From: Reinekea marinisedimentorum
GTDB lineage: Bacteria; Pseudomonadota; Gammaproteobacteria; Pseudomonadales; Natronospirillaceae
Direction: 5' to 3'
NCBI RefSeq assembly: GCF_004341165.1
Contig: NZ_SLZR01000004.1
Span: forward strand, 1 to 64,000
Length of the DNA stretch: 64,000 bases
The notes under the pieces are model-generated. The model did no database searches and had not been told where the DNA came from. It was given only the letters and a program-made list of their open reading frames with translations. The translations under genes were made by a program, and so were the position numbers. Positions 11,001-63,611 of this stretch are shown here, piece after piece. Each line of letters opens with the position of its first letter. Position 1 is the first letter of the stretch.

Positions 11001-11521
11001 GTGCCAAACAGAATGGCAAATACCGCCATCGCTATCGCGATGTACAAGGCGGTATCGTGATACCAGTGATCCGTTAAAACATTGGCATGGGAAACGATAC
11101 TAAAACTGACCGACACCGCCTTCAGCTGCAAAGCAACATAAGGGATCACACCAATCAGACAGATTAACGCGGCAATCACCGATACTTCACGGCTGTGCCC
11201 ATAGCGCGAAGCGATGAAATCAGAAATGGTGGTGACATTTTCCTGCTTGGCAACACGGATCATCTTCTGCCAGAAGGCAAAGCCGATGATAAACAGCAGA
11301 ATGGTGCCTAAGTGAACGGGTGAGAAAAACCAGCCGTTTTGCGCAAATTGCGCGGTAGAGCCGTAGAAGGTCCAGCTGGTGCAAAAAATAGTTAATGAAA
11401 GGCTATAGACCCATGGGTGCATGCGCCCCTTTACCGGCTTTTTGTCACCCCACAGAGCAATGGCAAATAGAATGGCAATGTAAATTAGGGATATGGCGAT
11501 ATAAAAAGAAAGGTTCAGCAT
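8075..11521 (-). CDS. SLC5-type hybrid sensor histidine kinase/response regulator (CbrA/NahK-like)
   Basis: A 1148-residue inner-membrane signalling protein. Residues 1-480 form about 13 membrane segments of a sodium:solute symporter-like domain, starting with an early GDKKPVKG turn. Residues 540-625 look like a STAC-type linker, and 640-755 are a PAS domain (SINQGISIIDQNLNLVAWN). A coiled linker leads to the H box AAGHDLVQPLN with His799. The ATPase domain has N box NLISNAIKY and G box DTGPGLN. A receiver domain covers 1031-1148 with phospho-acceptor Asp1081 in IIDYHL. The architecture joins transporter-like sensing to phosphorelay output, as in CbrA relatives that respond to carbon or nitrogen sources. 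No output partner gene is adjacent. ATG 11521 is the natural start. The ligand is unknown. Confidence 0.9.
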   Translation of the reverse strand: MLNLSFYIAISLIYIAILFAIALWGDKKPVKGRMHPWVYSLSLTIFCTSWTFYGSTAQFAQNGWFFSPVHLGTILLFIIGFAFWQKMIRVAKQENVTTISDFIASRYGHSREVSVIAALICLIGVIPYVALQLKAVSVSFSIVSHANVLTDHWYHDTALYIAIAMAVFAILFGTRHIDTSEHHPGMVLAIAFEAIVKLVVFLVVGYWAVESIGGGFLPVLRETVSSPSTAMMVSGFDDTYIYTTQMLLGIVGIFTLPRQFHVSVVEYQSDQDLRKARWVFPIYLILFNLLIAPLAIVGLLYFNSDAAQLEYLVLKLPMAAGRVDLATMAFIGGLSAATSMVIVATVALSTMLSNEILLPVLIRMNLWRADSKNMTRNILNLRRFGIVLIVLLAFFYYRLVVSAEQLIDIGLISFVAVAQFAPAIFLGLFWTGVNRKGVIWGLSLGLFAWFYTLLLPLIARSGLLPEGFYETLMSLSVLNPYSLFGLDALDPVVHGVSWSLALNVLGLLLGSAYNQDSLKDRIQASRFVHDGQNNHGAQSRGVTVGDLHTLISKFLTQEKLLSLLDEHVNPLNGRLLKDDTADDELVHKAERMLASVLGAPAARLLFEQIEKTSGQDWRNVSNIVNEASQVLKFNRELLNSALQSINQGISIIDQNLNLVAWNRTYQEMFDYPDELLSIGRPVDDLIRYNASRGECGDGDLEELVKRRINHLNRGVFYKFERLRTDGTYLEIQGRPMAEGGYITVYKDITEHRLIEEQLRRSNEDLEETVNKRTEALQLSNLELEKANKNKTRFLAAAGHDLVQPLNSAALFTASIQSRLKRQGADEDLIKLSDQIERSLHSAENLLNELLEISKLDSDIIKPSLATFSLKDMMQSLRDEFSIIAEERAVDFKLLPSSAAVVSDARLLRRILQNLISNAIKYSAMGRVLVGVRRGKDHIRIDVIDTGPGLNEFQAKAIFDEFYRVPEYSTNERGLGLGLAIVQRMSRLLDHPVTINSKVGKGSRFSVTVPAGKLVAKVKAEKQQLEEEKTDYRVLCVDNEQQIIDGMQSLIGEWGYSVVTALNEEGANELIEQQKPDLVIIDYHLDNDITGLDVVGNWQQSWLGDTPVIVITADYTDDVRHATKEKGFFLLKKPVRPLQLKALISKAIS

Positions 11522-11559
11522 CCGTTACCGTCGACGATTCACAACATAAATTGCAGATT

Positions 11560-13170
11560 TTATTTATGCAGTAGATAGTGTCGGTATTCGTTACGGACTT
11601 CAATTTTTTTTAGCTTCCCGGTACCGGAAACCGGCAATTCATCAACCACCAGAATGGCGTCTGGCATCCACCAGGAGTTCACCTGCTGCTGCAACACTTT
11701 GCGCAGCCGGTATTCACTGAACGCCATATTCGGCCGCAAAGTGAGCAACATAATGGGCCGTTCGTGCCATTTCTCATGCAGTGCACCGACAACACAGACT
11801 CGGTCGATCGCTTCGTATTGCATGGCTGCCTGCTCCAGCTCAACCGAAACGATCCACTCGCCCCCGGAGCGGATGACATCTTTGCTTCTGTCGAGCAAGG
11901 TAATGTACCCATGATCATCGATCATGCCGACATCGCCGCTTTCAAACCAGCCATCGACAAAATTCTCGGAAGGCTCTTCACTGAAATAGCCTTCTGCTAC
12001 CCAGGGGCCACGAATACGGATATTGCCCATGGTTTTGCCGTCATGCGGTAACGCACGGCCCAAGGCATCAAATATCTCGATCTCAATACCGAGCACAGCG
12101 CGCCCGGCCGAGGCCTGCTTTTGAAATCGCTCGTCTTCCGGTAACTGCTCAATATAAGGGCAACGGGATGCGGCACTGACCAGTGGCGAGGTTTCCACCA
12201 TCCCCCATAACCCCATCCAGTAGACGCCATACTTCTGAGCGTATGCCTTCACCAGCTCCAGCGGCGAAGGGTCGCCACCGGCACCAATGGTTTGCAGTGA
12301 ATCAATTGGCAAGTCACTCTTTTGAAGGTACTGATGCAACCGACGCCAAACATCCGGTACGGCATAGGCATGCGTCACCTCTTCTGTTTCGATCAACCCC
12401 TGAACATTTTCCGGCACAATCGCGCAACCGGGCAGAACCAGCTTGGCACCATAAAATACGGCGGCGTATGGCACGCCCCAGGCATTGATAAAGTAAAACG
12501 GCACCACCGGCATTACTACAGACCACTCGTCAAAGCCATGAAACTGCGAGCTGCCGGTAACCGAAGCATGCTGCGCCGTTGAGCCGTTTTCATAGATCAC
12601 CCCTTTCGGGTCACCGGTCGTGCCACTGGAATAACACAGACCACTGGGCGAATCCTGCGACAAGCTGGGCCATTCAAAGCACAGAGGCTCATAGGCAATC
12701 AGGGTTTCATAACAAAGCAAATCAAAAGCCGATTCAGCCGGCATTTGCTCCGCAGTACATAAAACGACGATGTGCTTCACCGATGGGATATTATCCGCCA
12801 GCAGCTCCAGTTGCGGCAGGTAGGCCAGATCTACAAACAGGCACACATTCTCTGCGTGATTAATGATGAACTGCAGTTGAGCTCTAACCAGGTGAGCATT
12901 GATGGGGTGATACACCGCCCCTACCCCACTGACTGCAAACATCACTTCCAGGTGGCGGTAGTGGTTGGCGGCTAAGGTACCGACATTGGCTTGCTTGCCA
13001 ATGCCCAGCTTTTTCAGCGCGATCGCCAGCTTGTTACAACGGGTGAAGGCATCTTTGTAGCGGTATCGATGAACAGACTCATCAGCAAGCGCGGAGACAA
13101 TCTCCTGATCAGGGTAACGCTGGGCAGCAGATTTAAGAATTTCAATTGTCGTTAACGAGGTGTTCTTCAT
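11560..13170 (-). CDS. AMP-dependent acyl-CoA synthetase (fatty-acid--CoA ligase family)
   Basis: A member of the ANL adenylating superfamily that activates a carboxylic acid to acyl-AMP and then acyl-CoA. The P-loop-like motif CYSSGTTGDPKGVIY is present, with GLWGMVETSPL (A5 region), GWFESGDVGMID with the ribose-binding aspartate, a DRSKDVIRSGGEW hinge and the C-terminal lysine motif PVSGTGKLKK. The length of 536 residues is normal. I start at ATG 13170 (MKNTSLTT); upstream in-frame ATG 13209 and TTG 13233 would add 13-21 residues without a good ribosome-binding site. The DPKGVIY form and the partner hydratase at 13779 suggest medium- or long-chain fatty acids; the substrate is not determined. 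Confidence 0.9.
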   Translation of the reverse strand: MKNTSLTTIEILKSAAQRYPDQEIVSALADESVHRYRYKDAFTRCNKLAIALKKLGIGKQANVGTLAANHYRHLEVMFAVSGVGAVYHPINAHLVRAQLQFIINHAENVCLFVDLAYLPQLELLADNIPSVKHIVVLCTAEQMPAESAFDLLCYETLIAYEPLCFEWPSLSQDSPSGLCYSSGTTGDPKGVIYENGSTAQHASVTGSSQFHGFDEWSVVMPVVPFYFINAWGVPYAAVFYGAKLVLPGCAIVPENVQGLIETEEVTHAYAVPDVWRRLHQYLQKSDLPIDSLQTIGAGGDPSPLELVKAYAQKYGVYWMGLWGMVETSPLVSAASRCPYIEQLPEDERFQKQASAGRAVLGIEIEIFDALGRALPHDGKTMGNIRIRGPWVAEGYFSEEPSENFVDGWFESGDVGMIDDHGYITLLDRSKDVIRSGGEWIVSVELEQAAMQYEAIDRVCVVGALHEKWHERPIMLLTLRPNMAFSEYRLRKVLQQQVNSWWMPDAILVVDELPVSGTGKLKKIEVRNEYRHYLLHK

Positions 13171-13241
13171 GTTGTTATTAGCCGGCTCCCAACGCTTTTC
13201 GATAAGCATTAGCAGTCTAGCCAGCAAGCACAACGCTCACA

Positions 13242-13275
13242 TCAGACGATAGAATGAGACTAGACTATCGTCTGA
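13242..13275. promoter_or_regulatory. Perfect 11-bp inverted repeat between trxC and the acyl-CoA synthetase
   Basis: TCAGACGATAG (13242-13252) and CTATCGTCTGA (13265-13275) are exact inverted copies separated by 12 bases. It lies just past the trxC stop and 72 bases before the synthetase start. No T-run follows on either strand, so a regulator-binding site or mRNA hairpin is more likely than a simple terminator. Confidence 0.45.
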
Positions 13276-13290
13276 TCACCCAGGTATTCG

Positions 13291-13737
13291 TTATACACCC
13301 AGATCGTTAGTCTGTTTTTCCAACCATTGGTCGAACAAACCACCCGGCATACTGCCCTGGCGCTGTTCAATAACCTTACCTTTATAGAAAAACAACAGGC
13401 TCGGAATACTGCGAATGCCAAACCTTTTGGAGAGTGCCGGCGTGGAATCGGCATCAACCTTCACAAAGCGCACACGGGGCTCCCATCCGGTGGCGGCCTG
13501 TTCAAATATGGGCGAGAAGGCAACACAGGGGGCACACCAGCTGGCCCAAAAATCGACCACAACGGGCAGGTCGGTCTTCAAAACATAGTTATCGAAATTG
13601 GATTCATTCACCGTTACCGCGCGATAGGCAATCACCGGGTTCTTACAACTACCGCAAATGGCTTTATCCATCAGCCGTTCACGGGGCACACGGTTTACCG
13701 TGCCACAGGTGGCACAGGTCACATTCAATGTCGTCAT
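13291..13737 (-). CDS. trxC: Thioredoxin 2
   Basis: A 148-residue cytosolic disulfide reductase. The N-terminal extension carries two CxxC pairs (CATC and CGSC) that bind zinc in thioredoxin 2. The thioredoxin fold follows, with active site WASWCAPC and the cis-proline loop RSIPSLLFF. Length and layout match TrxC rather than TrxA. It probably has its own promoter, since the next gene upstream ends 41 bases before its start, and its ATG has AAGAG at a suitable distance. In other bacteria trxC is oxidative-stress responsive; no OxyR site is evident here. Confidence 0.95.
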   Translation of the reverse strand: MTTLNVTCATCGTVNRVPRERLMDKAICGSCKNPVIAYRAVTVNESNFDNYVLKTDLPVVVDFWASWCAPCVAFSPIFEQAATGWEPRVRFVKVDADSTPALSKRFGIRSIPSLLFFYKGKVIEQRQGSMPGGLFDQWLEKQTNDLGV

Positions 13738-13778: not shown

Positions 13779-14807
13779 TTAACTGAGTTGATAGATCTTC
13801 TGTATTTCAGCTAAAGGAACTGATTCCACCTGCGGGTACTGCCATTCAGGCGCACGCGATTTATCAATCAGTTTTGCATCAATGCCTTCCATAAAATCGG
13901 GCTGACAAGCCAGGTTAGAGGCCGCGACCTTATCTATTTGCAGGATGTCGTCGCGCGACTTGCCGCGCATGTCTTTCATGTATTCCCAGATAAAGGCGAC
14001 GGACCAGGCAGAGCCGGCATCCCAGACTTTTTTAGCGCGACTGAAGGGTGAAATCTGCTGGTTGTCTTCAACCACATTAATCCAATCGGTCAGCGAGGCA
14101 TCATCCGGAAGCAGCTCCATGGCGGACATCCACGCCTTGTGAGTCTCATTAACGCTTTCCGCTGAGCTTTCGATATCCAATTCAGTAACATCAATTCCTT
14201 CCATCAGCTGCCGTTTGAGTATCTGGGCATATTCTTCGGTGATGATGTCATCGACATAACTTAATGCCATGGCCTCGGTTGCGCTCAGCGTAATACTGCT
14301 CATACCCACAAAGGTACCAGCCTTCCAGTAGTCTGCCTGAAGATAGGCGGCTGCGCCGACATCCGGATAATACCCGATTAACACTTCTGGCATGGCGAAG
14401 CTTGCCTGCTGACTACAGAGTTTAAGATTAGCGCCGGCAAAAAGGCCCCAGCCCCCACCAAAGGTAAACCCCTGCGAAAAAGCGACCACCGGCTTCGGGC
14501 TTTGCTCTATCAGCAGGTCGAGATCAAACTCATGCTCAAAATATGTATAGGCTTGCTCCTGACGATCAGCCTGAGGTGTATTCTGCAGTTCAATGGCCAG
14601 TGCTTTTACATCGCCTCCGGCGCAGAAGGCTTTTTCAGAGGTGCTTTCCAGCCAAATATGCTTAATGGCGGAATCCTCGAAGGCGTTCTCAAGGGCTAAT
14701 TTCAACTGAGTGATAAGGTCGTAACTGAGGGCGTTTAGGGCTTTCGGGCGGTCTATTTGAATCGTGCACAAATGACCGTTTTTCTGAACCTGGACGAGAG
14801 ATTCCAT
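13779..14807 (-). CDS. Enoyl-CoA hydratase/isomerase family protein, 3-hydroxyisobutyryl-CoA hydrolase-like
   Basis: A 342-residue crotonase-fold enzyme (from Met 14807; an in-frame ATG at 14828 would add seven residues). The oxyanion-hole segments are visible: KAFCAGGDVKAL, and FTFGGGWGLF with the second glycine pair. The later PEVLIGYYPDVGAA block is also present. The long C-terminal helical part is typical of the HIBYL-CoA hydrolase branch rather than plain 260-residue hydratases. It probably acts on acyl-CoA in valine or fatty-acid catabolism, which fits the acyl-CoA synthetase two genes away. The specific substrate cannot be read from the sequence. Confidence 0.85.
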   Translation of the reverse strand: MESLVQVQKNGHLCTIQIDRPKALNALSYDLITQLKLALENAFEDSAIKHIWLESTSEKAFCAGGDVKALAIELQNTPQADRQEQAYTYFEHEFDLDLLIEQSPKPVVAFSQGFTFGGGWGLFAGANLKLCSQQASFAMPEVLIGYYPDVGAAAYLQADYWKAGTFVGMSSITLSATEAMALSYVDDIITEEYAQILKRQLMEGIDVTELDIESSAESVNETHKAWMSAMELLPDDASLTDWINVVEDNQQISPFSRAKKVWDAGSAWSVAFIWEYMKDMRGKSRDDILQIDKVAASNLACQPDFMEGIDAKLIDKSRAPEWQYPQVESVPLAEIQKIYQLS

Positions 14808-14842
14808 GGGCAACAGCCTTATATTCAACTTCTGAAATATTC

Positions 14843-14867
14843 CGCTCAGGTTGGTTCACCCTGAGCG
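14843..14867 (-). terminator. Hairpin after proV, possible terminator
   Basis: CGCTCAGG and CCTGAGCG pair around a 9-base loop, and outer GAAAT/ATTTC bases (14834-14838, 14870-14874) can extend the stem. It sits 28 bases after the proV stop. The downstream T-tract on the minus strand is weak, so the terminator call is tentative. Confidence 0.45.
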
Positions 14868-14894
14868 AAATTTCAAGGCTACAACGGGTAAATA

Positions 14895-16118
14895 TTACCC
14901 GGTCTTCTCTGTTTCCTCGCCTTCACCGGCTTCAGGTTGCGGGCTTAGCACCTCGGCAATGGTATCCCGTGACAGCTCACCCTGAAGTTTACCCTCTTCA
15001 TCAACCACTGGAATCGGGTACTCCTGATCCAGTGTTTCCGGGATCACCTCTTCAATAACCGCATCCGGCTCAACGTTTACGTCAGAATCATAGTAGTGCT
15101 CGTCGGTAAGCAGCTCACCGTACTCTGATTTATCAAGTTCTTCTAACTGATCAAGAGCAAGCGCGCCCTGGTAACCATCGCCGGTAACGTTGTAAGCATA
15201 TTCATGCTTAGACGTACGCATTTCTTTCAAAGCCTCACCCACTGTTTCGGCCGAAATACGGAATTTGGCGGGCTTCATGACGGTATCGACAGACAAAGCC
15301 CGCGCGCGGTTTACATCACGCACAAACTTCTCGACATAGTCATCTGCCGGGTGCAGCAGAATATCTGCCGGAGCACCAACCTGTATCAGCTCACCATCAC
15401 GCAGAATGGCAATGCGATCACCAATGCGCAGTGCTTCGTCTAAATCGTGGGTAATGAAGATAATGGTCTTGTGCAGCTTTTCCTGCAGCTCAATAAGCTG
15501 ATCCTGCATTTCTGAGCGAATCAACGGGTCAAGTGCAGAGAAGGCTTCGTCCATCAGCAGAATTTCAGCATCGGTACACAGTGCACGCGCCAAACCTACC
15601 CGCTGTTGCTGACCACCGGAAAGCTGGCTCGGGTACTGATCTTCGTAACCCTTCAAACCAACATCTGCCAACCATTGTGTCGCCTTTTGCTGACGCTCTT
15701 CTTTGCCAATACCGCGCACTTTCAGACCGAAAGCGACGTTCTCAACCACAGTTTTATGTGGCAACAGGCCAAAGCGCTGAAACACCATCGACATTTTTTT
15801 ACGGCGGAACTCACGCAGCTCGGCATCGTTCAGGGTCATAATGTCCTGACCTTCAACAACCACCTTGCCTTCAGTCGGATCAATCAGGCGGTTAAAGTGA
15901 CGGATCAATGTGGATTTACCGGAGCCAGAAAGGCCCATAATCACATAGATTTCGCTGCGCTTAATATCAAGGTTAATATCTTTTAGGCCGAGCGTATGCC
16001 CGGTCTTTTTAAGAATTTCATCTTTTGAAAGCCCTTGTTTAACCAGGCCCATATGCTTGGCTGGCGTACGGCCGAAAAGCTTATACAGCCCTTCGATCTT
16101 AATAAGAGAATCAGTCAT
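14895..16118 (-). CDS. proV: Glycine betaine/proline ABC transporter ATP-binding protein
   Basis: A 407-residue ATPase that energises osmoprotectant uptake through ProW. Visible motifs are Walker A GLSGSGKST, signature LSGGQQQR, Walker B ILLMDEAFSALDP and the H-loop FITHDLDEA. The pre-Walker extension (GLSKDEILKKTG) is characteristic of ProV/OpuAA. A C-terminal CBS-type regulatory region (about residues 275-390) ends in a very acidic tail. I start at ATG 16118 (MTDSLIKIEG), which overlaps the proW stop by 8 bases; longer in-frame extensions would run deep into proW. CBS domains in this family sense ionic strength. It is the last gene of proXWV. Confidence 0.95.
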   Translation of the reverse strand: MTDSLIKIEGLYKLFGRTPAKHMGLVKQGLSKDEILKKTGHTLGLKDINLDIKRSEIYVIMGLSGSGKSTLIRHFNRLIDPTEGKVVVEGQDIMTLNDAELREFRRKKMSMVFQRFGLLPHKTVVENVAFGLKVRGIGKEERQQKATQWLADVGLKGYEDQYPSQLSGGQQQRVGLARALCTDAEILLMDEAFSALDPLIRSEMQDQLIELQEKLHKTIIFITHDLDEALRIGDRIAILRDGELIQVGAPADILLHPADDYVEKFVRDVNRARALSVDTVMKPAKFRISAETVGEALKEMRTSKHEYAYNVTGDGYQGALALDQLEELDKSEYGELLTDEHYYDSDVNVEPDAVIEEVIPETLDQEYPIPVVDEEGKLQGELSRDTIAEVLSPQPEAGEGEETEKTG

Positions 16119-16998
16119 GTCGGCCTCCCATATGACGTTGCGAACGCTTCGCATAAGCTTGTGAGACGCGATCAAAAATAATTGCCAATACGACAATGGC
16201 CGAACCGTTCAATAAACCCTGAGTAAAGTACTGGTTGGTAATGGACTGCAATACCGGCTGCCCCAGCCCTTTCACCCCGATCATGGACGCAATAACCACC
16301 ATGGCCAGCGCCATCATAATCGTCTGGTTGACACCTGCCATAATGTTTGGCATCGCAAGCGGTAACTGTACGTTCCACAACCGTTGCCAGGAAGTAACGC
16401 CATAGGCATCTGCTGCTTCGAGAACTTCTTTATCGACTAAACGAATGCCCAAATTAGTTAAACGGATCACCGGCGGAATGGCATAAATAACAACAGCAAT
16501 GACGCCGGGAATTTTACCGATGCCAAGCAACATAACGACCGGAATAAGGTATACGAAGGCCGGCATGGTCTGCATAACATCGAGAATAGGCGTAACAATG
16601 GCTTGTATACGGTTAGACTTAGCCATCGCAATACCAATCGGCACACCCAGTACAATTGAGAGAATGGTGCAAACCGTAATGATAGAAAGCGTACTCATGG
16701 TGTCTTCCCACATACCGAAGAAACCAATCAGAAACAGGGAGATACCCACACCGATCGTTAATTTAAGAGAGCGCGCTGCAAAGTGGGTAATGGCTAAGAT
16801 AATTGCAATCACCAACCACCAGGGTGTCGATATTAATAGATTTTCTATCCAAACCAGAAAAGCTAACAGGGGATCAAAAAAGTTTTCAATGGCTTCCCCA
16901 TGGGAACGCGAAAACTCACGGTAAGCCTCATCCAGAGTTTTGCGCACTGTCAGCAGCTCGCTTCGACTCAACTGAGGAAATTCTGTTATCCAGGACAT
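16111..16998 (-). CDS. proW: Glycine betaine/proline ABC transporter permease
   Basis: A 295-residue inner-membrane permease. An N-terminal amphipathic part is followed by about seven membrane segments. The conserved cytoplasmic loop is EAADAYGVTSWQRLWNVQLPLAMP, with the EAA motif that docks on ProV, and GVNQTIMMALAMVVIASMIG follows. Length fits the OpuAB/ProW family (E. coli ProW is longer at the N terminus). It lies 178 bases after proX, with a terminator hairpin in between, and overlaps proV by 8 bases. Confidence 0.95.
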   Translation of the reverse strand: MSWITEFPQLSRSELLTVRKTLDEAYREFSRSHGEAIENFFDPLLAFLVWIENLLISTPWWLVIAIILAITHFAARSLKLTIGVGISLFLIGFFGMWEDTMSTLSIITVCTILSIVLGVPIGIAMAKSNRIQAIVTPILDVMQTMPAFVYLIPVVMLLGIGKIPGVIAVVIYAIPPVIRLTNLGIRLVDKEVLEAADAYGVTSWQRLWNVQLPLAMPNIMAGVNQTIMMALAMVVIASMIGVKGLGQPVLQSITNQYFTQGLLNGSAIVVLAIIFDRVSQAYAKRSQRHMGGRHD

Positions 16999-51386: not shown

Positions 51387-52127
51387 TTAAAGATTAAGCC
51401 ATTGTTCACAGTCCCAGCCTAATAATTCTTCCAGCATTTTAATTTCATAATAAAAAATTTCTCGTAGTAAATTAAAGTCTTCCAGGCTAATTCCAGTCAC
51501 ATAATCAGTTGAATGCGTATCAATGTATTGGCTACTTTCAAATTCCCCTACATTCAGAAAACTTGCAATACCAGAGAGCGTGTTTTTTAAGTCGTATTTT
51601 AGATTTTCAAATTTCAAAATTAAAACCTGCTCTGCAGGAAAAAATTGCCACAGCCTACGTAGCTGAAACGAATAAAATCCTCGGTCACAGTATGAGAAAA
51701 CTCGATTTTGGTTTGGCAAAGAAACTCGACACCGAAGAGACTCCGCTTTTATCGCATCAGAGAACGACATGTCTTCTACTCCCCGATATCGTGCCATATT
51801 CCAATGAGAAAACGCTCTTTCTATCGGATTCCTTAATACAACAATCAGCTTAATTTCAGGATTGTACTGCCAAATTCTTTTAGGCGCGTCATTCCAATAC
51901 ATATAAATGGGTGTAGACTCACCCCTGATAGAAACAGTCGTATCTCCCGGAAAAGATTTATGGTATTTACTATAATCTACCTTACCGCCATTAAAGAGCT
52001 CATCAGTATCGAAGAAGTGCACTTCTTTTCTGGTAGCCATTTCAATTTCTGAATGAGTTCTCATGTACTTATCCAGAGCCGAAGTACCACTCTTCTGCGC
52101 CCCAACTATCAGAAAATCAACTTGCAC
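51387..52127 (-). CDS. Sulfotransferase (NDST/heparan-type) (5)
   Basis: A 246-residue PAPS-dependent enzyme. FLIVGAQKSGTSALDKYM is the 5'-phosphosulfate loop, RKEVHFFD contains the catalytic glutamate region, RGESTPIYMYW follows and IKLIVVLRNPIERAFSHW is the 3'-phosphate motif. This is the best preserved sulfotransferase of the set, close to the heparan N-/O-sulfotransferase pattern. It is convergent with the 49182 gene and co-directional with the ACP gene 127 bases upstream. Confidence 0.9.
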   Translation of the reverse strand: MQVDFLIVGAQKSGTSALDKYMRTHSEIEMATRKEVHFFDTDELFNGGKVDYSKYHKSFPGDTTVSIRGESTPIYMYWNDAPKRIWQYNPEIKLIVVLRNPIERAFSHWNMARYRGVEDMSFSDAIKAESLRCRVSLPNQNRVFSYCDRGFYSFQLRRLWQFFPAEQVLILKFENLKYDLKNTLSGIASFLNVGEFESSQYIDTHSTDYVTGISLEDFNLLREIFYYEIKMLEELLGWDCEQWLNL

Positions 52128-52254: not shown

Positions 52255-52515
52255 TCACTTACCGCACGCATCGATATATGCCAGAATATCATTCAAAGAC
52301 ATCAGCTTTTCGTAATCATCCTCGTCAATTTCTACACCAAATTCATCTTGAATACGCAGAAAAACTTCAATCATATCCAGGCTGTCCAAATCAAATTTTT
52401 GAGCTAAATTATCATCTAACGTCACAGTATTAAGTAACACATCACCTTCTTTTGACTGATGAACAATCTCAAAAGTCGAGTTGAATATCGCAAGCAACTT
52501 TTTATGAGCATTCAT
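52255..52515 (-). CDS. Acyl carrier protein
   Basis: An 86-residue acidic four-helix protein with FDLDSLDMIEVFLRIQDEFG, in which Ser45 of the D-S-L motif should carry 4'-phosphopantetheine. It ends CGK rather than in the usual acidic tail. It is not flanked by fab genes: its neighbours are a radical SAM gene (13 bases upstream) and a sulfotransferase. It is therefore a dedicated carrier, for acylation or for an aminoacyl/acyl intermediate of the glycan (inference). Confidence 0.9.
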   Translation of the reverse strand: MNAHKKLLAIFNSTFEIVHQSKEGDVLLNTVTLDDNLAQKFDLDSLDMIEVFLRIQDEFGVEIDEDDYEKLMSLNDILAYIDACGK

Positions 52516-52528
52516 TTATAACATCCTT

Positions 52529-53539
52529 TCATCTGTATAACTCAATATCTCTCTCATAATCATTAAGATACAAGCAAAGACACACATCTAAATAGTCCAG
52601 CCAGCCTCGAAAAAGATCTTCACTACTAACATGTAAATCCATCCGTGAAGGAACAATTAAACTACCGGCAGCATAAAGCCTACAATCAAAGCATTCTGTA
52701 TTTGGTGCGCAACAATCGCTTGAACTATGGTGTGTATGGTCGGCCCGATAGCTGCGGTATCTTTGGCCAATGCCTAACCCTTTTTTCCCATTGTCAGCAA
52801 CTCTAGGGCAAGGGCAGTCAAATTGCTTATATAAACTCTCACTTGCCGTGTGTACTTCAGCACTATAGCGAGAAAACAAAATGGAACTTCCATACTGTTC
52901 AATTAGGCTAACAACGGTATCGTACGCTCTTTTTCTAGAGCACTCGTCTAACTGAAGTGGTGAATGCTCACCGACAGGATTACTGAAAAAGTTGAATGTC
53001 ATCCTATGACCGCTACTTACAATTCTATGCGCAACACTGGGTAATTGATCAATATTGTTTTTATTAATGGTATATACAAAAACAGCGCGATTATCATCCT
53101 GATAGTTTTTAAGCTGCTTTGGTAAACAGTTTACACCCCTGTACTCTTTATCCCCTTTTTCATCCCCCCAAACGGAAATATGAATACGATAGTTAATCTC
53201 GCGATCAATCAATTTCAAGCCGTTCGTAAATATCGTACCAAAGGGCAAAACATTCCAGGCGGCAAATAGAAGATCAGGCACAAGCGCCGGCTCTGCCCCT
53301 GCCAAGTTAAAATAATTAATCCCTCTTTCTTGCTCAGTTATAAAAAAATGCCTCCATTTTTTTACATCGGTAGAATCTTCAACATGGCTCGACTCACCCG
53401 AGAAAAAATAGCAACCTTCACACTTAAGCTGGCATCTGGTGGTAAGATCATACGCCGAAGAGCGCAACTTAAAATAGGGCTTTACTTTATTATACCGAGC
53501 ATAGATTTCAGGATTTTCCAAGTACTTTGTAAAGCTCAA
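52529..53539 (-). CDS. Radical SAM protein
   Basis: A 336-residue iron-sulfur enzyme. DLTTRCQLKCEGCYFFSG holds the CX3CX2C cluster ligands (Cys36, 40, 43) that bind S-adenosylmethionine. NLAGAEPAL is the GGEP-type motif. The C-terminal part has six further cysteines (Cys242, 244, 276, 277, 283, 286), suggesting an auxiliary cluster of SPASM/Twitch type. Coupled to an ACP, it may modify a carrier-bound acyl or amino-acid group, or a sugar. No known glycan radical SAM family is recognised, so the reaction is open. Confidence 0.85.
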   Translation of the reverse strand: MSFTKYLENPEIYARYNKVKPYFKLRSSAYDLTTRCQLKCEGCYFFSGESSHVEDSTDVKKWRHFFITEQERGINYFNLAGAEPALVPDLLFAAWNVLPFGTIFTNGLKLIDREINYRIHISVWGDEKGDKEYRGVNCLPKQLKNYQDDNRAVFVYTINKNNIDQLPSVAHRIVSSGHRMTFNFFSNPVGEHSPLQLDECSRKRAYDTVVSLIEQYGSSILFSRYSAEVHTASESLYKQFDCPCPRVADNGKKGLGIGQRYRSYRADHTHHSSSDCCAPNTECFDCRLYAAGSLIVPSRMDLHVSSEDLFRGWLDYLDVCLCLYLNDYERDIELYR

Positions 53540-53684
53540 TCTACCTCCCTAATCTGAAGCCACTTAGCTTACAAATAGTCCAATTCAACAAAACAATGAT
53601 GTACTTCAGGTCTGTATTCACGAGAGTTAGTAATTGTAAGAAAAACAAAAACAGCACAGTCTATAAGTTTTACGCAAATTCTTA

Positions 53685-54368
53685 TCAGCTTAGCCCCTCG
53701 AAATGATCATCCAAGGCACTCTCAAGCAAACCTTCATCTCGCATCGGCACAGTTATATCATGCCGGTCTGTCCCCGCCACAGGATGATTAATCACTTGAG
53801 GAACAAGTGTTATATTTTTTGCATAACGGGCATCAACAATATTTTTCTCCCCATACCATAAGCTTATCTTTGCAATTGAACAATCTGGAGAAATCAAATT
53901 TGCAAGATTCAGCTTATAAGGGGATTCTAAATTTATGATGCGATTAAGAAGTGCAACCCCTCTCTTTTCAGCCAACAAGCTTTCGTTAGTCAAGTCTGTA
54001 ACCCCACCAAATAGAATTACACTTGTCGCACCTAGCTTTAACGCTGCATAAAGACCTGCAAAGCCTCCTCCAGAACTTCCTATACAATGAATCCTTTCAA
54101 CCCCGGAAGGTATGAGCTCTTTAAGATACCCAACCAAATCACCAAGATTACTGATCTTCAAAGATGACAGTCCATTTAGGTAAAGAAGTTTACTCTTATC
54201 CCTTAAATAAACTACGTTAGCGCCGTACTTCCTTAGGTATTGGTGCAACTCCCCCAAAGGTATTCCCGCTCGCTCGGCTGCACCTGAAAATACAAATATA
54301 ATATCTTTAGAGGCTGGCTCAACAAAGCTACATACTTCATCCTGCCTTCCTTCAAACACCTCTACCAT
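53685..54368 (-). CDS. Alpha/beta-hydrolase-fold protein
   Basis: A 227-residue protein with FVFSGAAERAG, a nucleophile elbow HCIGSSGGGFAGLYAAL (Ser99 in G-S-S-G-G), then SVILFGGVTDL and a late histidine region (INHPVAGTDRHD). No signal peptide. The family includes esterases, thioesterases and acyltransferases. Next to a radical SAM/ACP pair, a thioesterase or acyltransferase role is possible. It is 145 bases upstream of the radical SAM gene in the same direction. The substrate is unknown. Confidence 0.7.
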   Translation of the reverse strand: MVEVFEGRQDEVCSFVEPASKDIIFVFSGAAERAGIPLGELHQYLRKYGANVVYLRDKSKLLYLNGLSSLKISNLGDLVGYLKELIPSGVERIHCIGSSGGGFAGLYAALKLGATSVILFGGVTDLTNESLLAEKRGVALLNRIINLESPYKLNLANLISPDCSIAKISLWYGEKNIVDARYAKNITLVPQVINHPVAGTDRHDITVPMRDEGLLESALDDHFEGLS

Positions 54369-54549: not shown

Positions 54550-55665
54550 CTACTCTTTAGCTACGGTAACTTTATGACCATAGGCTTTAAGCAATGCATG
54601 TTGCTTTGCCTTATCCAAATCATTTGCAACCATCTCGGCACACATCTCTTCAACGGTAATCTCTGGTACCCAGCCAAGCTTTTCTTTTGCTTTAGTTGGG
54701 TCGCCCAGAAGCGTTTCGACTTCTGCAGGACGGAAGTAACGTGGGTCTACACGAACAATAACATCACCAACTTTAACACCCGGGGCATTATCACCCGTTA
54801 CAGAAACAACCGTTGCAACCTCATCTACACCTTCACCAGAAAACTCCAGCTCAATGCCTGCTTCTTTCGCAGACATACGCACAAACTCACGTACTGAAAT
54901 CTGTTTGCCGGTTGCAATAACGAAATCTTCTGCTTGCTCTTGTTGAAGCATCATCCATTGCATACGCACGTAATCTTTTGCATGGCCCCAATCGCGCAGA
55001 GCATCCATATTACCCAAGTACAAACATTGCTCTAACCCTTGAGCGATATTGGAAATTCCGCGGGTGATTTTACGGGTTACAAACGTTTCTCCACGGCGAG
55101 GGGATTCGTGGTTAAACAGTACGCCATTACAGGCATACATACCGTAAGATTCACGGTAATTAACAGTTATCCAATATGCGTACATTTTTGCAACAGCATA
55201 GGGGGAGCGCGGGTAGAATGGTGTTGATTCTTTTTGAGGAATCTCCTGGACTAATCCATACAGCTCTGATGTAGAGGCCTGGTAGAAGCGCGTTTTCTTT
55301 TCTAAACCTAAAAAGCGAATAGCTTCAAGAAGGCGAAGCGTACCAATTGCGTCGACATCAGCGGTGTATTCTGGCGCTTCGAAGGAAACAGCCACATGGG
55401 ACTGAGCGCCTAAGTTATAAACCTCATCAGGGTCAACTTCTTTTAAGATGCGAGTTAAATTAGAAGTATCTGTTAGGTCACCATAGTGCAGAAAGAAATT
55501 GGGCTTATCTGCATGAGGGTCTTGGTATATATGGTCAACACGCTCAGTATTGAACGAAGATGCTCGTCGTTTAATACCATGGACTTCATAACCTTTTACT
55601 AACAGAAACTCTGCTAAGTAGGAGCCATCTTGACCTGTCACACCAGTAATAAGAGCCTTTTTCAT
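54550..55665 (-). CDS. gmd: GDP-mannose 4,6-dehydratase
   Basis: A 371-residue short-chain dehydrogenase-type enzyme that makes GDP-4-keto-6-deoxy-D-mannose, the precursor of GDP-L-fucose and GDP-D-rhamnose. [15 protein letters not shown] binds [18 protein letters not shown] and [15 protein letters not shown] give the catalytic T/E/Y/K residues, and [15 protein letters not shown] follows. The C-terminal [20 protein letters not shown] matches E. coli Gmd, with the same length. It works with fcl at 48077. Confidence 0.96.
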
Positions 55666-57424: not shown

Positions 57425-58402
57425 TTAAGTTAACACAAAAAAACGATCTGCATTTATCGATATCTGTTCGATATACATTGCTCTATCTGCAGCATTCAAC
57501 ACAGCCCCTTCACCTACATCCCCTCTAAGCTGGATACCTTCAAGTGGGTCACCATCCAAATATGAAACCACTAAAGTATATTGGCCGCTAGACACTTGAA
57601 ACTTCCATGGGGGCAGTACCATAACCCTAGAATAGTAACACCAAGGATCAGCAGGTCTTACATCTAACTCCGCCAAACTCTTTCCTTCCTTAACTAACTG
57701 CACCTTAAGGTTACACATACTTGGCCCGATAGAAGAAAGAGCCAAAACCTCAAGAGCTCTTTCACTTAAGACCTCGAAAGAAAAAGAGAATGAATGGTCT
57801 AAAGAAACATAATCATCCACGCTTATTACTTTTGGCAACCTTGGGTAATTTTCCGATTCAGCATAAGCCCAACAATCTAAACTATCAAAATCTAATTCAT
57901 TTAGACGATGGTATAACACTTTCGCATACTCTCTAGCGCCAAATGAGTTTGTATGCACTACATCTCTAAGATACTTACTTGGTTCAACAACTATATCGCG
58001 AAGGTGTTCACACATATCTATAAAAGGGATAGCTAGTAAATTGCAACAATCAACAACCTGCTTATAGCACTCTCTCTGACCCTTTAAATCATCCGCCCTT
58101 GGAAAATGGACCCAAACTGGAAAAACGCCATTTTTTAGCAAATGCAAATTAAAACGCTTTATCTTCTCCTCACTAAAAACTTTCATGCTGGGAGTCAACC
58201 AATCAACAATACAAACGTCAGGCTTTGCCTTAACTAGACATTCGGCATATGCGTATCCTGCATAATCGAAGTGACTTGCTCCATATGAAAGTCTTTCAAT
58301 TTCTACTTCCTCACACGGGGCATACAGCCTTTCTAAGTGATAAAAATAACCGCCCTTATCTTTTTGTGCTGTAACACTAGCACCGTAACAAAGCAATTTC
58401 AT
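57425..58402 (-). CDS. SGNH-hydrolase-like protein with C-terminal beta domain
   Basis: A 325-residue protein from ATG 58402 (TAATG overlap with the gene upstream, GGAG ahead of it; an ATG at 58414 adds four residues). LLCYGASVTAQ is the block I region with Ser in G-A-S rather than G-D-S. CIVDWLTPSM and DVVHTNSFGAREYA supply the block V-like D-x-x-H. Residues 200-325 are a beta-sandwich-like part. SGNH proteins in glycan clusters usually remove or add acyl groups. It is cytosolic as read, with no signal peptide. Activity is inferred. Confidence 0.65.
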   Translation of the reverse strand: MKLLCYGASVTAQKDKGGYFYHLERLYAPCEEVEIERLSYGASHFDYAGYAYAECLVKAKPDVCIVDWLTPSMKVFSEEKIKRFNLHLLKNGVFPVWVHFPRADDLKGQRECYKQVVDCCNLLAIPFIDMCEHLRDIVVEPSKYLRDVVHTNSFGAREYAKVLYHRLNELDFDSLDCWAYAESENYPRLPKVISVDDYVSLDHSFSFSFEVLSERALEVLALSSIGPSMCNLKVQLVKEGKSLAELDVRPADPWCYYSRVMVLPPWKFQVSSGQYTLVVSYLDGDPLEGIQLRGDVGEGAVLNAADRAMYIEQISINADRFFVLT

Positions 58403-60444
58403 TAGCTCTCCCATGAAATGAGATTATCCATGGTTTTGAATAACTCAACTAAAGATGCACTACGACACTCAATTTCATCTTGAGTCATTCGCCCTAAATG
58501 CTCAAATAAAGCAGAGTCAATTTCACCAGTCCATAAGACACTTTGATTCAGTAACTCTCGACCCAGATTATTTTCCGAAAAAACAGACAAATCACCTAAG
58601 AAAACCACTGGAATAGAACCAACAGCGATAGACTCCCAAAAGCGTAAAGTATTAGGGCCCGCACCAATCGGGCATAATGAAAACTTAGAATCACTCAAAA
58701 TCAAATTATAGCGATATGTTCTTTCCTGATGTTGATCCAAATATGCTGACTCAACCTTCCTACTTAACACCTGCTCTTCATACACTACTTTATTGAAGTG
58801 CCACTCACTACCTAAATCGACAAACACATCATCTCGACCAGATTCCTTAGCAGCTTCAAACAACCTAATACGGCTATCATCTAAATAGTGAGGCATATGA
58901 GCGCCAATAAACGAAGCTAAAAGCTTCTTTTCAGCAACAGGCTTTCGCTCCATACCTTTGCTTCGTTCAGGAGTTACATAATTTACAGCTATAAGCATCC
59001 AGCCATGCAGACGCAGCTCAGTACCAACTTCTTGCTGCTTCAACTCACTCTTTGAGTCCTTATGGGAAAGATGCAAATCAGTTACCCCAAGCTCTTGAGC
59101 AACCTCTAAAATCCTCACCCAGTGAATATGCTGGCAAACAGAATGAACCCTTAATTCAAAGCCATTATCAGAAGCAATAGCATTATAATATGCGAGAAGC
59201 GACTTAATCCTTGAAAGATATTTATCAGGGAAAACTTTCTTATCTATATAAGTCGCCCATGGCAGAGGAAGGTATGTATTAATTACTTTAACCTGAGAGT
59301 CGATATGATCTCCTGCGCGTATACTCTTATGATTATTGTAAGCTTGGAATTCTGTCGCACATGGGTACTGCCAAAAATTAACGTCATCCGCACTTCTCGG
59401 CTTATCTGACACTTCGTCAATATAAGATTCAACTATTATTGGAATTAACCCATGCACATTGGCAAGCTGAGGATTCTTACTATAAATATCTATTGGTAAC
59501 GAGTTTCCCAATCCTCTTTCATAGCCATTTCTAAATAAAACAGCACCTTCATTTGAAGTCACTGTGAAGTTAGCATTAAATTTGTATAACATGTCACCCG
59601 ATTTAAACGCATTCAAAGCTAATTCGGCACTAACAGACTTAAACTGAGCAGACACATTTTCCGTAAACTTGTTTTTTTCTTGCTGTTCTTTAATGCTTTC
59701 TCCTATCCACTTCTCCATAGATTTATTAATTGCGACCTTGTTCAATTTATTACTACGCTTTGTCCATACATCAAAATCTAAACTCGCCTCATCCTCTAGG
59801 TTATCGCCAGGGTAAACATAGGCAACCCCACCTAACAGGCGATCGTCAAGCTTCTTATCGTATGTTCTCATTTGGGATTCATGCATATGAATGCTTCGTA
59901 AGTGTTTTACTGGGTTAAACACCTTCCAGCCATAAATAGAGAACAAATAAGCGATTTTATTGTCGCAACGGGGTACACCCATGGGAAAATGCAGCAATGA
60001 AAGCAAACTGGCTGGCACTTCATCTTCAACCCGAACAGCCCATGTATCTTGAGACCAATGCGGGTTTGGGTGCATCTGGGTAGTACCCTGCAAATACTCC
60101 CAGCGAGATAGAGCAAGAAAGCCATTAGGCTCTTGTAACACTTCGCGAATAAGAGGTAAGGTATCGTCAAAATAGATATCGGAATTACACAATATACTAA
60201 TTCCACTACTACACTTTTCTTGCGTTAGTTCCAGCCAACTTCGGTAGGTGAGACGTGAATTAATGTACAGCACCTGAATATTATCGGTTTCAACAGCGCA
60301 CTCGCACCCATCATCGATAATTACAAATAACTTATCTATACTCTCATTTGTTGCATTCTTAATTAAACAAGCGTCAATTTCTCGCTGTCGTGCAACATCA
60401 TTACATTGGTAATATGAAAAAAATACATTAATAGGCGGCTTCAT
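58402..60444 (-). CDS. Large glycosyltransferase with C-terminal exostosin-like domain
   Basis: A 680-residue protein. The first 230 residues look like a GT-A-like module (VFFSYYQCNDVARQREID, LCNSDIYFDDTLPLIREV, with D-I-Y-F as a possible metal site). The last 200 residues resemble exostosin/GT47: LLASFIGAHMPHYLDDSRIRL, then YRYNLILSDSKFSLCPIGAGPNTLRFWE and SIAVGSIPVVFLGD. The middle part is unassigned. A GT-A plus exostosin pair is the plan of polymerising enzymes in animal glycosaminoglycan synthesis, although the order and families are not the same. It is co-directional with the SGNH gene and overlaps it by one base. Confidence 0.7.
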   Translation of the reverse strand: MKPPINVFFSYYQCNDVARQREIDACLIKNATNESIDKLFVIIDDGCECAVETDNIQVLYINSRLTYRSWLELTQEKCSSGISILCNSDIYFDDTLPLIREVLQEPNGFLALSRWEYLQGTTQMHPNPHWSQDTWAVRVEDEVPASLLSLLHFPMGVPRCDNKIAYLFSIYGWKVFNPVKHLRSIHMHESQMRTYDKKLDDRLLGGVAYVYPGDNLEDEASLDFDVWTKRSNKLNKVAINKSMEKWIGESIKEQQEKNKFTENVSAQFKSVSAELALNAFKSGDMLYKFNANFTVTSNEGAVLFRNGYERGLGNSLPIDIYSKNPQLANVHGLIPIIVESYIDEVSDKPRSADDVNFWQYPCATEFQAYNNHKSIRAGDHIDSQVKVINTYLPLPWATYIDKKVFPDKYLSRIKSLLAYYNAIASDNGFELRVHSVCQHIHWVRILEVAQELGVTDLHLSHKDSKSELKQQEVGTELRLHGWMLIAVNYVTPERSKGMERKPVAEKKLLASFIGAHMPHYLDDSRIRLFEAAKESGRDDVFVDLGSEWHFNKVVYEEQVLSRKVESAYLDQHQERTYRYNLILSDSKFSLCPIGAGPNTLRFWESIAVGSIPVVFLGDLSVFSENNLGRELLNQSVLWTGEIDSALFEHLGRMTQDEIECRSASLVELFKTMDNLISWES

Positions 60445-61418: not shown

Positions 61419-63611
61419 TCAACTTCCTTCATGGGTATTATTAGCTTCTAAAAGTTCTGGGTGCTCTTTTTGCAGCTGAAAGTAATACTTTGAAGCCAAT
61501 GTTAACTTTTCCTTTAACTCAGCTACTAAATCTACTAGACCCCTTTCTGATTCAACTTTCTCAGCATATAAGCTCCGTAGTTCGTCCAAATCTATTTGAG
61601 ACTTAGCAAGCATCTTCTGACCCAAGCTAACCGCTCTATCTTTTTCTTCCAGCTTAGCTCTTAGCTCTTCTAATTGTTCCTTCAATGAATGAGCCCAATT
61701 ATTATGCTCTTGGTACCTAGTATGCTCCTGATCACGCTGCTTTGTTACTTCTTCTAGTGAATTTTCTAAATTAACCTTCTCTTCACTTAATGAATTCAAG
61801 TTCTGCTGAAGCTTTCCAATTTTTACAGTAATTACTTCCGCCTCTTCCGTAAGCATTTGGTACTTTTCTTGGAAGCTACTAAGCTCATTGCTTAACGCTG
61901 AATTTTTATCAGTTTTTAGTTTAAGCTCCTGTTCAGTGTGAGCCAATAGCTCCTCTTTCGCACTTAAGGATTGCTCAATTACAGCTAAACGTTCATTAGC
62001 CTGTACGGCCTCAGCTCTCGCAGACTGAAGCTGCTCCGTGGCATCAACCAGCTCCACCTTTAAGGTATTTTTTTCTTCAGATTCTTTCTGGGAAAATAAT
62101 TGAAGTTTATTAATCTTATTTTCCAGCGATTGTTGCTCTTGCGCTGAAGCGAGCAATTTTTGTTCTTTCTCTGCCAAGATATTTTCTAAGCGTGTAACAC
62201 TAGACTTGTACTGAGAGTTTTCAGCTTTCAAACTATCCAGGCTTTGCTTTAGTTCCTTAGCTCCTTCTATCAGAGCTTCTTCACTGGATTTCAGTGTTTG
62301 AATTTGACTTTCAAGTTCGGAAGCTAACGCTTTGAAGGTATATTTTTCTTCGGTCTCTTTCTGGGAAACCGATTGAAGGTCACTAATCTGGTTTACTAGT
62401 GACTTTTGCTCTTGCTTTGAAGCGAGCAGCTTTTGCTCTTGCTCTGCCAGGGTACTTTCTAACCGTGCAACGTTAGACTTGTACTGAGACCTTTCAGCAT
62501 CCAAGCAATTCTGGTTTTGGCTTAGTTCCTTAGATATTTTTTTCAGAGCTTCTTCACTTGATTTCAGAGTTTGAACTTGGTTTTCAAGCTCGGCAACTAA
62601 CGTTTTACCGGCATCGCGTTCTAATTTTAAATTACTCAGCTCTGTTTTAAGAGAGTCGATTTGATCCTTCTGCGATACAAGTAATCCATTAAACTTAGCC
62701 TTTTCTGCTTCTAAGTTCTTGGCTATTTGGTTGGCGTTTTTATCTGCCTGAGTTTGCCTGGCTATAGCATTTTTCTTATCAATTTCAAAAGCAGCTGCTT
62801 TGTTGGTTATTTCCAGCAACTGAGCGCTAAGATTAGATTTATCGAGCTCTAGCTGGTTAATCATCTTTTGCAGTTTAACTTGCTCATCATCGCTTGCCTT
62901 TTTAAGCGCATTATTTTCAACCGCAAAACTTTCACACTTAAGCTGTAATGCCTTGTTTTTCTCTCGAAGTGCTTTTAACTCTAGCTTATTTGTATCTTTC
63001 ACAAAGGTATAGCTTGTAAAGATGGAGCTTTCTTTAGCTTCATGCGCTAGTGCAAAGGCAGCCTTTAACGGCTGAATGTCGTTAAAAGGTACTTCCGCAG
63101 AGGGCATTTCGGCATCATTTATTGAAACAGCCTGTACCACTATTACAGTAAATTTATTTAACCACTCTGCATTTATAGCCGCCAATATGGAATTTTCTGC
63201 ACCGTTCAGTTGCAATACAAGTATGTTTTGATTGCCTTCTTGTAGGCTTACACTTTGCAGTAAATCATTAATGCCTATGGCTTCTACTTCAGCATGCTCA
63301 ACCTTTAGGTTCTTAAACAGCTTTTTAAATGCCAGCGGCTCTACAATACTGCTGAATTGCTGTGGCACAGAATTGTAAAAGGTTACATTTTTGGTTTGCT
63401 CAGCCACAACCTTGTTCACAACGCTTACTGTGCCGGAACCGTTAGTTTTAAGCGATAACTGCTGAGCCACACTTGGGTTAGCTTCCACCAGGTGTATGCT
63501 CTTCGCATTCAGTTGATGGTAGCCTTCAAGTTCGGTACATTGGCCAGCACCTATGTGAATAATAGTGCCTACATTATTCAGCGGTATGTTTAAATTTTTC
63601 AAACTGTTCAT
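61419..63611 (-). CDS. FkbM-like methyltransferase domain with a long coiled coil
   Basis: A 730-residue protein. Residues 1-210 resemble an FkbM-type SAM-dependent methyltransferase: TIIHIGAGQCTELEGYHQL is the nucleotide loop, HLVEANPSVAQQL carries the acidic residue after strand 2, and LVLQLNGAENSILAAI is the later G-x-E motif. Residues 215-715 are an almost unbroken coiled coil rich in E, K, Q, L and A. Two exact-period tandem repeats of 91 residues (13 heptads) lie in it. A SAM domain on a long coiled coil recalls WbdD, the O-antigen chain terminator and ruler of E. coli O9a. A kinase domain is not seen here, so the comparison is by layout only. Confidence 0.75.
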   Translation of the reverse strand: MNSLKNLNIPLNNVGTIIHIGAGQCTELEGYHQLNAKSIHLVEANPSVAQQLSLKTNGSGTVSVVNKVVAEQTKNVTFYNSVPQQFSSIVEPLAFKKLFKNLKVEHAEVEAIGINDLLQSVSLQEGNQNILVLQLNGAENSILAAINAEWLNKFTVIVVQAVSINDAEMPSAEVPFNDIQPLKAAFALAHEAKESSIFTSYTFVKDTNKLELKALREKNKALQLKCESFAVENNALKKASDDEQVKLQKMINQLELDKSNLSAQLLEITNKAAAFEIDKKNAIARQTQADKNANQIAKNLEAEKAKFNGLLVSQKDQIDSLKTELSNLKLERDAGKTLVAELENQVQTLKSSEEALKKISKELSQNQNCLDAERSQYKSNVARLESTLAEQEQKLLASKQEQKSLVNQISDLQSVSQKETEEKYTFKALASELESQIQTLKSSEEALIEGAKELKQSLDSLKAENSQYKSSVTRLENILAEKEQKLLASAQEQQSLENKINKLQLFSQKESEEKNTLKVELVDATEQLQSARAEAVQANERLAVIEQSLSAKEELLAHTEQELKLKTDKNSALSNELSSFQEKYQMLTEEAEVITVKIGKLQQNLNSLSEEKVNLENSLEEVTKQRDQEHTRYQEHNNWAHSLKEQLEELRAKLEEKDRAVSLGQKMLAKSQIDLDELRSLYAEKVESERGLVDLVAELKEKLTLASKYYFQLQKEHPELLEANNTHEGS
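62046..62591 (-). repeat. 273-bp intragenic tandem duplication in the coiled-coil gene
   Basis: Copy one (62319-62591) encodes ELENQVQTLKSSEEALKK and onward; copy two (62046-62318) encodes ELESQIQTLKSSEEALIE and onward. Each is 91 codons, and the frame and heptad register are kept. The copies have diverged, so the duplication is not recent. Confidence 0.8.

Follow-up and report, generated by a model that had tools for sequence, protein, structure and literature searches.

A carrier protein, a radical SAM protein and a serine hydrolase in a glycan cluster of Reinekea marinisedimentorum: a possible acyl-modifying unit with kin in fatty-acid-type clusters

The glycan cluster of Reinekea marinisedimentorum analysed here contains three consecutive genes, which encode an acyl carrier protein (ACP), a radical SAM (rSAM) protein and a serine hydrolase. 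Our results confirm the trio and support in part its first interpretation, radical modification of a carrier-bound group that then reaches the glycan: pairs of the genes are conserved elsewhere, and the whole trio is so far single. As a tentative reading, in which our confidence falls a little short of even, we propose that the trio, built around a carrier protein, produces a modified acyl group and passes it to the surface glycan as a substituent. If this is true, the radical modification of carrier-bound fatty acyl groups would be linked with the decoration of cell-surface glycans.

The trio consists of three minus-strand open reading frames spanning 52255–54368, which is where the first-pass annotation, made from the sequence letters, had placed them. 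The genes and their immediate neighbours are the following:

51387–52127, minus strand: sulfotransferase, directly downstream of the trio (Sulfotransfer_1, E 7.9e-15)
52255–52515, minus strand: ACP, 86 aa, with the phosphopantetheine serine Ser45 at 52381–52383 (PF00550, E 4.9e-9)
52529–53539, minus strand: rSAM protein of the r1 lineage (see below), 336 aa, assigned by alignment, trees, AlphaFold and Foldseek
53685–54368, minus strand: serine hydrolase of the alpha/beta type, 227 aa, with the triad Ser99 (54072–54074), Asp179 and His203 from an alignment of 8 rows
54550–55665, minus strand: GDP-mannose 4,6-dehydratase, directly upstream of the trio (TIGR01472 gmd, E 2.2e-176)

Transcription runs from the hydrolase through the rSAM gene to the ACP gene, with gaps of 145 nt and 13 nt. 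The surroundings are those of a Wzx/Wzy-type glycan cluster, comprising a sugar transferase, a flippase-type protein, a Wzy/ligase-type protein, many glycosyltransferases and GDP-fucose genes. Several sulfotransferase-family proteins are encoded in the same cluster, part of these matches lying under the Pfam cut-off, and the glycan is probably sulfated. No KS, PKS or NRPS gene was recognised in the cluster, in line with the earlier claim that no fatty-acid or NRPS genes accompany the trio; likewise, neither an acyltransferase or exporter gene beside the trio nor an ATP-grasp or adenylation gene near it was recognised. One AMP-ligase gene tested in the window (i.e., the whole stretch of 64 kb that was analysed) is located at 11560–13233, 40 kb from the trio.

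In the same window, a protein encoded at 57425–58414 is SGNH/GDSL-like as judged from its start, has no Pfam or NCBIfam match, and could be another glycan O-acyl enzyme. The 680-aa protein encoded at 58402–60444 gives weak matches to Exostosin GT47 and RXYLT1_C, families that are better known in animal glycan synthesis. Finally, the 730-aa protein encoded at 61419–63611, which has no Pfam match at E 0.001, shows by eye a methyltransferase-like start and then a long coiled-coil-like remainder.

The rSAM gene has a TTG start with AGGGAGG in front. Its product carries the CX3CX2C motif as Cys36, Cys40 and Cys43 (53411–53434), and these residues are invariant in 56 aligned rows; the structure alignment took in 40 r1 rows out of 80, together with 15 from r2 (both defined below). 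The match to the Pfam family Radical_SAM (PF04055; E 0.012) stays below threshold, with 16.3 bits against a cut-off of 29.5. In fact no Pfam or NCBIfam family cut-off is reached, the best NCBIfam match being ScmE with 26 bits against a cut-off of 400. Homologues and fold agree with the motif on which the rSAM assignment had first been based, and together they leave no doubt about membership of the superfamily. The AlphaFold model has a pLDDT of 83, with residues 244–260 and 274–281 under 50. Over the core, a partial TIM-barrel, the top Foldseek matches are rSAM structures, namely the SPASM/twitch enzymes SuiB and CteB, BlsE, and viperin, all with 11–20% identity to the trio protein; BlsE and viperin have nucleotide-like or sugar substrates. 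As for the C-terminal cysteines, six are found at residues 242–286, as had been counted, but two further ones are present at 320 and 322. Cys242, 276, 277, 283 and 286 are invariant in the 56 aligned rows, whereas 244, 320 and 322 are not.

A profile scan of genome contigs with the rSAM protein yielded 420 relatives, of which the best 80 (L025–L104), those nearest the query alignment, were kept and are referred to as r1; the other 340, weaker relatives are outside the locus counts given here. These 80 show 41–48% identity and by title belong nearly all to Desulfobacterota or Myxococcota. Their typical gene order is FabZ-ACP-r1-r2-KS, where r2 is a second rSAM paralogue. It comes after r1 in 79 of these best 80 loci, the exception being L068, where the contig ends. 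Within 1.5 kb upstream of r1, a script found an ACP motif in 73 of the 80 best loci (median gap 11 nt), which puts the ACP–rSAM neighbourhood beyond chance. Among the seven r1 loci without a scripted motif, L048 and L072 start at a contig end, and L096 does contain an ACP match, overlapping an ORF start that was set too early. L034, L053, L075 and L077 are r1-r2 loci truly lacking the upstream ACP motif, and are the sole clear exceptions among the 80.

Clustering of the neighbours at the same best 80 of 420 loci gave FabZ-like proteins at 72, KS at 71 and a B12-binding rSAM protein at 48. The clusters were named by reading, with a Pfam check on ten proteins of L090 and L093; this returned FabA-like, PP-binding, rSAM, two KS, 4HBT and B12-rSAM matches, and further LolA, a lipid A-type acyltransferase and MMPL. 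Judged by this predicted gene content, the r1 loci are fatty-acid-type clusters, and by the same content they would resemble ladderane-like clusters. They would likewise resemble aryl-polyene clusters in gene content, one of the matches being ApeI-like.

In a tree of 162 rows, the trio rSAM joins the 80 r1 rows with an SH-aLRT of 99, long branches, that of the trio rSAM included, being flagged. A more careful tree of 35 rows, built without the long-branched L022, joins the trio rSAM and r1 at 99/100 (bootstrap/SH-aLRT) and the 12 r1 rows alone at 100/99; L157 is absent from both trees. By these trees the trio rSAM is placed as sister to the r1 lineage. Across 40 r1 rows, 140 columns show no variation; the trio rSAM has the same residue at 96 of them and another one at 44, so that its substrate may not be the same. 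An ACP adjoins the rSAM in both cases, downstream in the trio and upstream in the r1 loci. The R. marinisedimentorum genome has a single member of the rSAM family and no r2, and no KS was found among the neighbours of the trio rSAM.

The carrier protein points in the same direction. Its PP-binding match is over the Pfam cut-off and its DSL serine is Ser45, as the claim of a DSL-serine ACP had it. The genome gives two PP-binding matches, which makes the trio ACP the only carrier protein besides a housekeeping-type one; a single AcpS is present. Among the r1-cluster ACPs, taken from the loci of the best 80 of 420 rSAM relatives, the best match to the trio ACP reaches 52 bits, and the genome's other ACP reaches 33 bits. 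Because it is nearer to the ACPs of the r1 clusters, ACP and rSAM can be read as an acyl-modifying cassette, and we conclude that they are a pair of common ancestry with fatty-acid-type lipid clusters.

Outside r1, members of the rSAM family are rare in Pseudomonadota. Besides R. marinisedimentorum, 2 out of 293 genomes sampled across the order contain near-full-length relatives; in the class there are relatives in 4 of 369 genomes at E 1e-10, one of them partial, and in the phylum in 3 of 398. The class of G718 has them in 5 of 289 genomes at E 1e-20, three of which match over only about half, and none of 6 other genomes of the genus gives a match at E 1e-10. The ACP linkage of the rSAM, strong in the r1 lineage, is patchy elsewhere: an ACP lies beside the rSAM in 1 of 9 Pseudomonadota genomes tested, only G615, where a KS fragment, ACP, rSAM, GNAT-like protein and GT41-type proteins are found together. 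On a Methylomagnum plasmid, an ACP, a TauD dioxygenase, an rSAM protein and an NRPS are grouped, with glycosyltransferases further on.

Two other clades have partners of a different kind. In a distant one (L002, L003, L017 at 14174–16529 and L018 at 11243–13640), a gene for a diiron protein resembling PaaA stands directly in front of the rSAM gene. In L017 and L018 it bears the annotation 'Phenylacetic acid catabolic protein', and there the rSAM gene is followed by one for a MaoC protein or a thioesterase; the clade is present on both plasmids and chromosomes. Another (L139, L140, L141 and L157) adjoins cytochrome P450 genes and is partly beside MBOAT, SGNH or carbamoyltransferase genes, names given by reading. 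A constant association with an ACP was rejected for the broad rSAM family as a whole on the grounds of the PaaA-like clade, the P450 clade and the count of 1 in 9 Pseudomonadota genomes.

The hydrolase has a Ser-Asp-His triad with a G-x-S-x-G-type elbow. All 8 aligned rows keep Ser99, Asp179 and His203, in keeping with its initial assignment, and the relatives are 20–28% identical to it. The trio protein has no Pfam match even at E 1 and one NCBIfam match at chance level, while some relatives give weak matches to Hydrolase_4 and further Abhydrolase families; its structure model (pLDDT 44.6) is too poor for a structure search. Hydrolase relatives are present in 3 of 274 genomes besides R. marinisedimentorum and in 7 plasmid records (three queries), and the regions of 6 of these 7 plasmids, i.e., all but that of Sinorhizobium, were opened. 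In G595 and G718, a longer hydrolase relative, with TPR matches in G718, overlaps the start of a broad-family rSAM gene; these two rSAM proteins group with each other and not with the trio rSAM (98/97 in the 35-row tree), so that two rSAM lineages have come together with the hydrolase.

On two Azospirillum plasmids, the genes for an ATP-grasp protein, an ACP and the hydrolase are consecutive, for A. lipoferum by ORF similarity only. The Sphingobium RAC03 plasmid (L149, 8121–16735) combines a TPR-hydrolase relative with pyruvyltransferases, an ACP and a glycosyltransferase, as well as two PhyH dioxygenases, a fatty acyl-AMP ligase and a P450. In Novosphingobium, Tritonibacter and Marinovum, the relative lies among capsule or pseudaminic-acid genes; these three of the six opened regions show no annotated ACP, in plasmid gene tables that are incomplete. 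The relatives of G306 and G427 have no recognisable glycan context. The first-pass annotation had tied its proposal to a trio conserved in related clusters and to an rSAM protein without a housekeeping role: the second point holds, as does the conservation of the pairs, and a second complete ACP-rSAM-hydrolase trio was found in no other genome searched. As a separate observation, the glycan region of Sphingobium RAC03 looks like an oxygen-dependent counterpart of the trio.

If the trio indeed serves glycan acylation, the single AcpS of the genome would attach phosphopantetheine to Ser45 of the ACP, and an acyl group would then be put on the carrier, probably from host fatty-acid synthesis, since no loader is close to the trio. 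The rSAM protein would then use its [4Fe-4S]/SAM site to modify an unactivated C-H on the chain carried by the ACP, in what is most likely an oxidation; its five C-terminal cysteines would probably bind another iron-sulfur cluster. Oxidation is preferred because these five invariant cysteines resemble those of rSAM enzymes in which an electron passes to an auxiliary cluster; the chemistry is a guess, as the model is unsure precisely at these cysteines. Finally, the serine hydrolase would take the acyl group onto Ser99 and hand it to a sugar hydroxyl, transfer being preferred over hydrolysis in view of the glycan contexts of the hydrolase family and the precedent of Asp2 (see below). It is the gene neighbourhood that suggests the glycan as acceptor. 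The sequence proposed originally, radical modification of a carrier-bound group followed by its transfer to the glycan, thus gains from linkage, i.e., the rSAM–ACP association at 73 of the 80 r1 loci and the hydrolase family in glycan clusters. On the other hand, the companions of r1, namely r2, KS and a loading enzyme, are absent at the trio, which counts against glycan acylation. The same holds for the lack of a second complete trio, the 44 differing columns, the low-confidence modelling of the C-terminal cysteine region, the three opened plasmid regions without an annotated ACP, and the count of 1 in 9 for an adjoining ACP outside r1. In its most specific form the proposal is less likely than not: an r1-type rSAM without r2 or KS would make a C-H-modified acyl group on a dedicated ACP, and a serine acyltransferase would join this group as an ester to a sulfated, fucose-containing polysaccharide.

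Alternatively, the product of the trio could be a chain derived from a fatty acid and destined for a lipid anchor or for a free metabolite, with the hydrolase as a thioesterase releasing the chain from the ACP. We regard this as unlikely, although hydrolysis is common among serine hydrolases of this fold, the r1 relatives are found in fatty-acid-type clusters with 4HBT thioesterases, and wcb/rkp are known examples of capsule clusters that include acyl-building enzymes (mentioned in PMC3908369). The lack of a recognised KS, acyltransferase or exporter gene beside the trio speaks against it, as do the hydrolase relatives in pseudaminic-acid clusters without an annotated ACP.

It seems less likely again that the rSAM protein acts on a sugar or sugar nucleotide while ACP and hydrolase serve another acylation. 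The partner in the sister r1 lineage is an ACP in fatty-acid-type clusters and not a sugar gene, and this weighs against a reading that could otherwise appeal to the Foldseek matches with BlsE and viperin, to the position of the trio in a glycan cluster and to the relatives outside r1, most of which have no adjoining ACP.

Two further explanations are improbable, to about the same degree. In the first, the ACP would carry an amino-acid-type load, not a fatty acyl group, to be converted and transferred by rSAM and hydrolase, as the Azospirillum row of ATP-grasp protein, ACP and hydrolase and the Methylomagnum group with its TauD dioxygenase and NRPS could indicate; however, the surroundings of the trio showed no recognisable gene of the ATP-grasp, adenylation or NRPS kind, and its nearest kin are the fatty-acid-type clusters. 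In the second, the trio would be a horizontally acquired remnant without present function. In favour of this, a search of 6 other genomes of the genus gave no counterpart, neither r2 nor KS is present, and the ACP gene has a G+C content of 0.35 against 0.43 for the 64-kb window; yet several nearby glycan genes are as low, all three reading frames are uninterrupted, and both the triad and the cofactor-binding cysteines are preserved. A role as RiPP peptide maturase, considered for the SPASM-type fold matches, is unlikely. In the comparison with SPASM/twitch enzymes, no peptide partner was recognised, and the C-terminal cysteines were not matched to the SPASM spacing. A housekeeping rSAM was rejected because the NCBIfam models score far below cut-off and the 6 other genomes of the genus have no match, and a phage origin because 18 viral-contig loci gave weak partial matches only (best E 8e-9).

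For our preferred reading, a unit that acylates the surface glycan, parallels to single parts are known. Asp2 of the accessory Sec system, a streptococcal glycoprotein acetyltransferase, is described in PMC5578698 as an esterase-type Ser-Asp-His enzyme acylating a glycan, as is proposed here for the hydrolase. The trio hydrolase does not match the Asp2 model PF16929, and 1 of 8 hydrolase rows does so at E 0.16. The swf operon of sponge symbionts brings together a carrier-bound acyl chain, a sulfotransferase and a radical SAM enzyme (PMC3908369), like the region of the trio. Compared by description, it differs from the trio in relying on Type I PKS/FAS enzymes and on an rSAM that binds B12 and is fused to other logic, and in having neither a stand-alone ACP nor a hydrolase.

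In open PubMed Central papers, we found no description of an ACP-rSAM-hydrolase unit in a glycan cluster and no functional study of the r1-r2 rSAM pair. Nevertheless, the initial statement that no described pathway has this set has to be corrected, since the nearest rSAM lineage appears to belong to fatty-acid-type clusters of a kind described in 2009. Kuenenia stuttgartiensis and Desulfotalea psychrophila have FASII clusters that include rSAM enzymes, presented in that study (Rattray 2009; PMC2649909) as possible ladderane or polyunsaturated-lipid clusters; polyunsaturated hydrocarbons are described for Desulfotalea, and the rSAM step is left unproven. A 2023 survey (PMC9902471) still calls the ladderane pathway unknown, and lists ladderane-like clusters in Desulfobacterota and Myxococcota, among others. 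One scan gave 420 confirmed relatives of this unexplained rSAM lineage. The trio, a system of two or three genes in a genome with a single further ACP, would let one of its enzymes be assayed with the acyl-ACP that goes with it.

The ladderane-like clusters contain rSAM pairs in fatty-acid gene clusters with ACP and KS paralogues (PMC2649909), and the trio rSAM and ACP are kin to a comparable pair in related Desulfobacterota; the likeness to the clusters of Kuste3343/DP1855 and Kuste3342/DP1853 is one of gene content and taxa. Unlike these clusters, the trio has one rSAM protein, lacks r2 and KS, and includes a serine hydrolase, all inside a glycan cluster. If our reading is true, this stand-alone trio would show the action of a single r1 enzyme, a question that has been open in the ladderane-like clusters since 2009.
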